Shown here: positions 23,638-25,447 of the stretch, one piece after another
Position numbering within the stretch: the stretch's first letter is position 1
Layout: each line of letters opens with the position of its first letter
Assembly (NCBI RefSeq): GCF_022179225.1
Contig: NZ_BPQL01000080.1
Coordinates: 1-64,000 of the forward strand
Source of the DNA: Methylobacterium goesingense
GTDB taxonomy: Bacteria; Pseudomonadota; Alphaproteobacteria; Rhizobiales; Beijerinckiaceae
DNA length: 64,000 nucleotides
Direction: 5' to 3'
Notes under the pieces: model-generated
Database searches by the model: none
Seen by the model: only the letters and a program-made list of their open reading frames with translations
Told to the model about the DNA's origin: nothing
Made by a program: the position numbers and the translations under genes

Positions 23638-23955
23638 GTGCTCGACGTCGCGTCATCTCCTCCTCTGATCCGCCTCCTCAGTGGTTTCGCGGTGCTCGCG
23701 ACCCTGGTTCTGCCGATTGCCGTGACGGCGCTTCCGGCGTCGCAAACCCTGGCGGTGATCGTTTCCCCCGGCCAGGACGCAGCGGAAATCGTGGCCCGGT
23801 CGGGCGGCACCATCCTGCGTCAGGGTGGGTGGAGCAACGTCCTCGTGGTTCGAGCCGAATCGTCCGATCTCGTCGCCCGCCTCTATGCCTCCGGCGCTTG
23901 GCTGGTCATCGACGCGCGGTTCGCGACGGCCTGTGCGCCTTCTTCCCAATCCTGA
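23638..23955 (+). CDS. Small secreted protein paired with a chemoreceptor
   Basis: The 105-residue product starts at GTG 23638 and has a hydrophobic leader ([20 protein letters not shown]) followed by a small alpha/beta domain: [39 protein letters not shown] and [20 protein letters not shown]. The pattern suggests an exported ferredoxin-like or ACT-like domain of about 75 residues. Its stop is 25 bases before the chemoreceptor start, so the two are almost surely co-transcribed. I recall comparable small proteins next to such receptors in other alphaproteobacteria but cannot name a characterised family. Confidence 0.65.
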
Positions 23956-23980
23956 GTTCCACGACGGACACGGCACAGTG

Positions 23981-25447
23981 ATGACGAACCTCGACACCCT
24001 TCGGCAGACTTTCGGCCGGTTTCTCATCGCCTTTCTCTGGCTGCACCTGCCGATCATCGCGCTCGGCGCCTGGTTCGCCGACAATGCGCTCGCGGTGCCC
24101 CTGGTGATCGCCGGCCTCATGGCCGGACTCAGCACGCTGATGTGGCGGCGCTCTCCGACCGGCCCGACAACGCGGCTGGTCAGCAGCCTGTCGCTCATCG
24201 GCATGGCCGCCATCCTCCCCTCCGTGCTGGCCGGGCATCCGTGGCAGATCGACGTGCACATGTACTTCTTCGCCTGCATGGCGGTAATCGTCGCATGGTG
24301 CGACTGGACCGTCCTGGTGGCCTGTGCCGCGGCCGTCGCGGGCCACCATCTCGCCCTCAACGCCACGGTGCCGGCCCTGATCTTCCCCGGCGGCGCCAAG
24401 ACCGCGGACCTCGCGCGCGTCGTGCTCCATGCCGTCATCCTGATCATCGAGACGGGCGTGCTGGCCTGGGTGGCGCGCACCATCCCGACGGCCTTGGCGG
24501 CGCAGGCCGCATCCGAAGGCGCGATCCGGGCGCAGATGGACCGCATGCGGGCGCTGGAATCCGAGGCCGCGCTGGCGCGGGCGGGGGCCGAGGCGCAGCG
24601 CCGGGAGGCCATGCAGCAGACCGCCCATTACTTCGAATCGACCGTGGGAGGCATCCTGAGCCGTGTCACGCAGGCCGCGGCGGCGATGCAGGATACGGCG
24701 CGAACCATGACGCGGACGGCGGAAGGCACGGCGGGTCAGGCCGAATCCGTGGTCGGCGCCGCCGTGATGGCTGCGCACAACGTGGACCAGGTGGCAGGAG
24801 CCGCCGAGGAGCTCGGCGCCTCGGTCCAGGAGATCGGCCGCCAGGTCGCGGAATCCGCGCGGATGGCGCAGGGCGCGGTGACGCACGCGGACGCCACCGG
24901 CCAACTGGTTCTTGCCCTGAGTACGGGCGCGGCCCGGATCGGCGATGTGGTCGGGATCATTTCCGGCATCGCCGGCCAGACCAACCTCCTGGCACTCAAC
25001 GCCACCATCGAGGCCGCGCGGGCCGGCGAGGCCGGTCGAGGCTTCGCCGTGGTGGCGGCGGAGGTGAAGGAACTGGCCAACCAGACGGCCCGGGCGACGG
25101 AAGAGATCACGCAACAGATCAACGCGATCCAGGGCACGACCGGCGAAGCCGTCACCGCCATCGAGGCGATCGCCGCACAGATCCGCACCATGAGCGTGAC
25201 CGCGGACGCGATCGCGGCGGCGGTGAACCAGCAGGGATCGGCGACCCAGGAGATCATCCGCAACGTGAGCGAGGCCGCCACCGGCACCGGAGCGATCACG
25301 GCCACCATCGGCGGCGTCGCCCAGTCGGCCGGGGAAACGGGCGGAGCCGCCGCCTGCGTGCTCGACTCCGCTTCCGAGCTGGCGCAGGAGGCCGATCACC
25401 TCGGAACCGAGGTGAACCGGTTCCTCGCGACCGTGAAGGCCGCCTGA
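23981..25447 (+). CDS. Methyl-accepting chemotaxis protein
   Basis: Chemoreceptor that controls CheA. The 488-residue protein has an N-terminal membrane block of about six helices with histidine- and aromatic-rich stretches ([36 protein letters not shown]), with no periplasmic loop domain. A helical linker follows, then a cytoplasmic signalling domain with the hairpin tip [20 protein letters not shown] and [18 protein letters not shown]. Sensing therefore probably occurs in the membrane or through the small exported partner encoded upstream. There is no HAMP or PAS domain. ATG 23981 follows GGCACAGTG. Confidence 0.93.

Follow-up and report, generated by a model that had tools for sequence, protein, structure and literature searches.

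What does a chemoreceptor detect that has no periplasmic domain, and does the small gene directly in front of it form part of the sensor? Both questions are raised by a gene pair in a 64,000-nucleotide stretch of the Methylobacterium goesingense genome (contig NZ_BPQL01000080.1), referred to in the following as the window. In most bacterial chemoreceptors the ligand-binding domain is unannotated, according to the part of PMC10613068 available to us, and chemoreceptors without a periplasmic domain offer no clue to their mode of sensing; here, a partner gene and a near-invariant set of residues provide direct handles in the form of two unnamed protein families and a candidate cofactor site. ORF calling on the + strand gave a small gene at positions 23638–23955 (GTG start, 105 amino acids) and a receptor gene at 23981–25447 (ATG start, 488 amino acids), with 25 bases between them (23956–23980, + strand), confirming the coordinates and the gap given in the first-pass annotation. 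The only Pfam match of the receptor above the cut-off is the MCP signalling domain (PF00015; residues 296–450, positions 24866–25330 of the + strand, E 3.2e-29), which identifies it as an MCP chemoreceptor. Neither a HAMP nor a ligand-binding domain was found by Pfam above the cut-off, and the AlphaFold2 model has short loops, so that the earlier description of a receptor without a periplasmic ligand-binding loop holds. The genome contains 24 matches to the MCP signalling domain and a single copy of the pair of small gene and six-helix receptor, which in the window lies between what we take to be housekeeping genes, ruvC and a yebC-type gene. Topology class III chemoreceptors are described, in the part of PMC13401364 at hand, as having a variable number of membrane helices and no periplasmic domain. 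On the basis of the AlphaFold2 model the receptor fits this class, with which it shares several membrane helices, the missing periplasmic domain and the MCP signalling domain; what sets it apart is its particular six-helix block, for which no Pfam model was found, and the small gene beside it. Topology class I was rejected in view of the six helices with short loops and no Pfam ligand-binding domain.

The pairing of the two genes turned out to be a feature of the Alphaproteobacteria. When 99 genomes, among them that of the window, were searched with single sequences, 30 had a match to the small protein and 41 one to the membrane block, and at the loci obtained in this way the small gene adjoined almost every membrane block; in class-wide profile searches, 50 of 289 genomes had the small protein and 49 of 385 had the block. 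Among 175 different six-helix blocks of Alphaproteobacteria (scoring 100 bits or more against the profile, identical domains removed, domain sequences of about 100 residues or longer, shorter or split blocks such as that of G473 left out), the small gene lies upstream on the same strand in 166, downstream in 4 and nowhere in view in 5. "Alphaproteobacterial" here means assigned to the same class by the genome search or found as a named locus, a few of the named loci being designated only as "Proteobacteria" and one as Frankia; L132 (G350) was counted as belonging to the class. The four downstream cases come from three genomes, since L090 and L325 are one genome viewed twice. As to the five blocks without the small gene, the gene is broken in L279 and the contig ends in L078, while L069, L338 and L080 are truly without it; L069 and L338 keep the histidine set described below, and the small gene is absent there although the flanks were read. 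The first-pass annotation had tied its proposal to a pairing kept in other genomes, and with 170 of 175 distinct blocks the pairing is indeed kept. The small gene and the six-helix receptor are a conserved two-gene input module in Alphaproteobacteria.

The named loci, taken as the best 80 of a longer list, give the same picture: in 79 the small gene stands immediately before the block in the same orientation, which is more than a chance arrangement. They include Methylobacterium, Bradyrhizobium, Roseococcus, Asticcacaulis, Kaistia, Novosphingobium and others, and the closest named relatives among the matches listed are from Methylobacterium. The exception among these 80 is L279, with a broken copy of the small gene; at this Bradyrhizobium locus (L279:2706-3590) the frame of the small gene is broken and the receptor is intact. 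Over 167 pairs, a median of 21 bases separates the stop of the small gene from the beginning of the block; on the Agrobacterium vitis plasmid pAt the small gene carries the annotation "hypothetical protein" and runs 17 bases into the receptor gene. The divergence of the small protein, measured as protein distances, goes along with that of the block (correlation 0.75) and nearly as closely with that of the signalling domain (0.73; partial correlations 0.40 versus 0.30), at an effective number of roughly 87–107 pairs of small protein and block; the correlated divergence of the small protein is thus not specific to the six-helix block.

Of the best 80 named loci, 66 encode chemoreceptors preceded by the small gene and 11 encode hybrid histidine kinases, the remaining three being L229 (contig end), L280 (broken frame) and L279. 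Kinase identity was assigned by Pfam in 3 of the 11 (HisKA, HATPase, receiver and Hpt domains) and by motif in 8; in L193 the block is followed in the same frame by HisKA and HATPase, and in L144 the same domains lie in another frame. In a tree of 144 rows the kinase output requires two changes, and the small gene was retained in both. The pairing tracks the input block and not the output domain. In the same tree, 27 non-alphaproteobacterial rows are split from the 117 others (SH-aLRT 100), and three further non-alphaproteobacterial rows (L131, L133, L134) nest within the 117-row group. Because the adjacency is class-wide, receptor and small protein probably act jointly as a two-part sensor of an undescribed kind. 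The first-pass annotation had suggested a two-piece sensor of undescribed type, and this part of its proposal is well supported by the genetics, namely by the pairing in 170 of 175 blocks and by the kinase outputs.

Where in such a sensor a signal might be received is suggested by the six-helix membrane input block (residues 1–184, positions 23981–24532 of the + strand). The AlphaFold2 model of receptor residues 1–185 consists of six helices, one of only 12 residues, and a short additional one (mean pLDDT 95.5, pTM 0.90); helix 6 is predicted to span residues 144 to at least 184, heading toward the signalling domain. The block had been called rich in histidine and aromatic residues, and rightly so: residues 1–180 hold 6 of the 10 histidines of the receptor together with 7 Trp, 7 Phe and 1 Tyr. 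Across 175 alphaproteobacterial and 30 non-alphaproteobacterial blocks, D/E91, H93 and H123 are each kept in 204 of 205 and H122 in 202 of 205; H150 is kept in 204 of 205, the remaining block being cut off before that column. By predicted topology, with the N-terminus reasoned to be cytoplasmic, this D/E-x-H...HH...H set would lie near the periplasmic face: D91 and H93 (codons, with residue 92 between them, at 24251–24259, + strand) at the periplasmic end of helix 4, H122-H123 (24344–24349, + strand) in the periplasmic half of helix 5, and H150 (24428–24430, + strand) at the periplasmic end of helix 6. The underlying block alignment (A4) contains 120 of 133 thinned blocks and omits L080, L341, L342 and L345, which have no histidine set, as well as some truncated rows.

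In Alphaproteobacteria, H93/H123 and the small gene occur together in 170 cases, the histidines without an intact small gene in view in 4, and neither in 5, L029 being truncated ahead of H123. The cases with neither are L080, in which H93, H122 and H123 are lost and the small gene is absent, and the weak relatives L341, L342, L344 and L345, which lack both the histidine set and the small gene; these four are among five alphaproteobacterial blocks scoring below 100 bits, the fifth being the cut-off L029, with the small gene. Five divergent blocks, of which some are closely related (L342, L344), thus carry the tie between lost histidines and lost small gene, and its cause may be distance and not function. 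L080, L341, L342, L344 and L345 are mostly chemoreceptors resembling the block and represent perhaps a derived variant.

Database comparisons left the block without a family name: none of the 27 members scanned matched an NCBIfam model, and Pfam scans up to E 0.1 of 27 members of alignment A2 and 27 of A7, the non-alphaproteobacterial block alignment, revealed no MASE or other sensor family, only scattered matches of one or two members to unrelated models. Profiles of the block (A4) and of the non-alphaproteobacterial block (A7) had no credible relative among the sequences of solved structures, and Foldseek gave no significant match for the six-helix block in the PDB. The best structural match, obtained with VIA, is ImcA, a six-helix diguanylate cyclase of P. 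aeruginosa (PDB 8wcn; Z 10.0, rmsd 4.2 over 175 of 185 residues, to be read against a caution level of about 13 for helical bundles). The activity of ImcA is set by a partner protein, IsmP, according to the accessible part of PMC10904736; no sequence match with the block was found, and output and partner differ.

The small protein consists of an N-terminal hydrophobic helix and a predicted periplasmic ferredoxin-like domain, as judged from its ORF, its homologues and its predicted fold (AlphaFold2, mean pLDDT 88.3, pTM 0.66). The helix (residues 9–30, positions 23662–23727, + strand) may be a signal anchor or a signal peptide, and the domain (residues 37–99, positions 23746–23934, + strand) has the predicted order b-a-b-b-a-b-a. 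Among 117 homologues, the net charge before the helix is higher than that after it in 78, equal in 27 and lower in 12. The earlier designation of the protein as exported is therefore right in its predicted sense, with the N-terminal helix either cleaved as a signal or retained as an anchor; given this helix, an anchored partner is just as likely as a free one. The most conserved residue is Cys99 (codon at 23932–23934, + strand), kept in 116 of the 117 rows of the alignment, the last row having a Cys nearby; all 167 paired small proteins have a Cys near the C-terminal end. In the 117 homologues (alignment A3, 117 of 120 thinned small proteins) no residue other than G86 and C99 is conserved at 90% or more, for which reason no conserved ligand pocket is visible in the small protein. 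No credible Pfam match was obtained for the window's protein or for 29 members scanned up to E 0.1, and there was no NCBIfam match; the A3 profile found no credible relative among solved-structure sequences, the top rows being designed TIM barrels. By predicted fold, the domain resembles subtilisin propeptides (Foldseek probability 0.98–1.00, E 0.03–0.13; VIA Z up to 7.9, rmsd 3.6 over 64), which we take to be the inhibitor I9 family; at the sequence level, this family gave no match with the 29 members up to E 0.1, and the small protein differs from the propeptides by its membrane helix, its conserved terminal Cys and the lack of a protease beside it in the window. Judged on these models, neither the structural match of the small domain nor that of the block is strong enough to show kinship.

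The small domain was found in 201 distinct versions (at least 25 bits), of which 170 lie beside a six-helix block and 31 in other contexts: 9 immediately after an MFS transporter gene, 5 as fusions with DUF2243 and 17 elsewhere, a few of the latter probably spurious; Pfam confirmed four of the MFS and three of the DUF2243 proteins. Since it also occurs beside MFS transporters and fused to DUF2243, the small domain is probably a general partner domain for membrane proteins.

The two proteins are distributed differently. In 299 genomes across the phylum the block was found in 46, 27 of them outside the class; the phylum-wide genome search for the small protein found it in 27 genomes, 26 of them in the class and one marginal. 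Alphaproteobacterial and non-alphaproteobacterial blocks are homologous (hhalign probability 99.7%, E 4e-25, 168 columns), and the small gene is absent, within the stretches read, at all 30 non-alphaproteobacterial loci (27 genomes), from which it follows that the block can work without the small protein. H93, H123 and H150 are kept in all 30 of these relatives, none of which has the small protein. Beside the receptor, other genes appear. At 7 of the 30 loci a SCO1/SenC gene (Pfam) adjoins it (L131, L133, L134 (=L363), L163, L169, L178 and L180), five of them on the receptor's strand and those of L131 and L133 divergent on the opposite strand; the seven cases are spread over three separate parts of the tree. 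DUF6436 adjoins the receptor at L167, L168, L172, L173 and L177, and at L142 a similar CxC protein without a Pfam name was counted as a partner as well. SCO1/SenC- and DUF6436-type neighbours have a hydrophobic N-terminal stretch and CxxxC or CxC motifs, and a membrane-anchored neighbour with a Cys motif is thus found at no fewer than 13 of the 30 loci (SCO1/SenC 7, DUF6436 or similar 6), a lower bound because the flanks measure only about 1.5 kb at some loci; no partner gene was seen at the other 17, with short flanks for some. SCO is likewise annotated alongside a Marinobacter plasmid receptor, and a P. aeruginosa plasmid carries DUF6436 beside a short six-helix protein. The list of six-helix chemoreceptors outside the Alphaproteobacteria with such neighbours also has L355 (SCO1/SenC) and L359 (DUF6436). 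The family extends to haloarchaeal plasmid proteins, which match the six-helix receptors; on a plasmid of Halobaculum limi a member (L356:3890-5743) lies between the gene for subunit I of a cbb3-type oxidase and nirK.

We favor the reading, with a probability of roughly 0.53, that the two genes encode one sensory unit in which a periplasmic partner docks over a metal, heme or redox site formed by histidines. The D/E-x-H...HH...H set would bind a metal ion or heme, or would respond to redox state, oxygen or NO. The small protein would remain on the periplasmic face, where its ferredoxin-like domain with the C-terminal Cys may dock over or beside the histidine site and complete or gate it. Occupancy or redox state of the site would then shift helix 6, which continues towards the cytoplasmic signalling helix, and this shift could set the activity of CheA (or of the kinase) with no HAMP domain involved. 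In this picture, Alphaproteobacteria would have in the small protein their own version of a more general anchored periplasmic partner, whose position in other proteobacteria might be filled by SCO1/SenC-type or DUF6436-type proteins. As to the signal, metal, redox or respiratory gases are suggested by the neighbouring SCO1/SenC and DUF6436 genes, by the genes for oxidase and nirK and by the example of RegB with SenC; the neighbor genes (SCO1/SenC, oxidase, nirK) also offer a way to find it, pointing to copper, redox or respiratory gases. The wider proposal is more tentative, at somewhat less than even odds: that a family of histidine-cluster receptors in proteobacteria and haloarchaea, each with a lineage-specific anchored Cys partner, constitutes an unrecognised class of two-protein chemosensors for metal, redox or respiratory gases, with the small family as a general docking subunit. 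If true, chemotaxis would be joined to copper and redox proteins through a defined protein pair, and a role would be at hand for a small-protein family that also accompanies transporters.

The alternative that survives best, a rather doubtful one in our estimate, leaves the small protein out of signal detection and makes it instead an assembly factor, a stabiliser or a periplasmic inhibitor dedicated to the block. Subtilisin propeptides are folding chaperones and inhibitors of their partner, and the likeness of fold to them (Foldseek, VIA) would be in line with such a function, as would the small domains beside MFS transporters (9/201) and fused to DUF2243 (5/201), which fit a general partner of membrane proteins. 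However, homologous blocks outside the class manage without the small protein, the fold matches stay below the level of relationship, and a pure stabiliser would leave the conserved Cys unexplained. Unlikely, too, is a second model, according to which the small protein is the ligand-binding sensing subunit for a periplasmic solute and the six-helix block only transduces, in the manner of periplasmic binding proteins acting with Tar or Trg. Conserved pairing and a predicted extracytoplasmic domain would suit this model, but the small protein has only G86 and C99 at 90% and no credible Pfam match, and the conserved polar cluster lies in the receptor. The first-pass annotation had cast the small piece as the detachable sensing subunit, and this is the part of its proposal that is not supported, given that the conserved candidate binding residues belong to the receptor block, where the three main histidines are kept at 30 of 30 loci without the small protein. 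The periplasmic binding proteins working with Tar, Trg and Tap are large and soluble and are not known to form an obligate gene pair with one receptor; the idea of two-piece chemosensing is shared, the piece here being a 105-residue single-helix protein. A periplasmic solute-binding protein was discarded as an identity for the small protein on account of its 105 residues, its single helix with a domain of about 65 residues and the missing Pfam match.

Quite improbable in our view is a model in which the block senses by itself, binding heme or oxygen for aerotaxis after the manner of Halobacterium HtrVIII, and the small protein does no more than adjust it. In the available part of PMC13401364, HtrVIII is described as having an MCP domain and six membrane segments at its N-terminus, which are proposed to bind heme, and as mediating aerophilic responses; this model would also accommodate the three nearly invariant histidines of the block and the haloarchaeal family member whose gene lies between those for oxidase subunit I and nirK. 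The likeness to HtrVIII of Halobacterium salinarum, compared by its partial description only, lies in the six membrane segments and the MCP domain, and the difference in a small partner, of which that portion of PMC13401364 makes no mention. That the two genes are neighbours only through genomic hitch-hiking, or that the small one is a leader ORF with no function for the receptor, is very improbable, as the position between presumed housekeeping genes in the window is outweighed by the class-wide pairing, which already contradicts it, by the conservation of the small gene at the protein level throughout the class, by the reversed gene order in three genomes and by a pairing kept through two output changes.

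Returning to the preferred reading of a joint sensory unit, several known systems offer partial parallels. RegB/PrrB is a six-helix sensor co-encoded with the extracytoplasmic SenC/PrrC (PMC9147068, in the part accessible), and the combination of a six-helix sensor with an extracytoplasmic partner is the shared element, 7 of the 30 non-alphaproteobacterial relatives adjoining SCO1/SenC; the small partner here differs in not being SCO. Identity of the block with a RegB-type quinone sensor was rejected, as hhalign against 14 RegB-type membrane domains gave a probability of 0.1% (E 0.68) and the GGxxNPF motif, invariant in the RegB set (A6), is absent from the window's block. The small protein was also rejected as SCO1/SenC, having one Cys and, in the window's protein and the 29 members, no match to PF02630, and as identical to or descended from DUF6436 (PF20029, CxC), with no Pfam match and an hhalign probability of 0.2%. 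YfiR-YfiN and QseG-QseE, compared on partial descriptions, resemble the pair insofar as an extracytoplasmic accessory protein tunes a membrane sensor, and differ in partner proteins and outputs. Of the methanol-taxis receptors of Methylobacterium aquaticum 22A, MtpA is cytosolic, MtpB is of the dCache type and MtpC belongs to topology I, according to the parts of PMC10613068 and PMC12202990 available, and since these architectures differ from that of the receptor, it is none of the three. A search of the open-access literature, partly accessible as it was, found no description of this pair, which is no proof that none exists.

Finally, the small-protein relatives in other contexts deserve a remark. 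Those directly downstream of an MFS transporter are found at L112, L143, L151, L156, L188, L200, L103, L148 and L152. Copper importers of the CcoA type carry MxxxM and HxxxM motifs (PMC6362234, in the portion available); a CcoA-like identity of the MFS neighbours was rejected, both motifs being absent in 8 of 9 and L152 having a lone HxxxM. At the C-terminus of DUF2243 membrane proteins the small domain occurs in L111:955-1782, L201:2701-3549 and L202:1710-2570, and these fusion partners carry a His-rich motif of their own. Distant relatives that stand alone were seen at L030, L032, L023, L146, L157, L368 and L369, several of them, on inspection by eye, near oxidase-like ORFs and ORFs for small membrane proteins.
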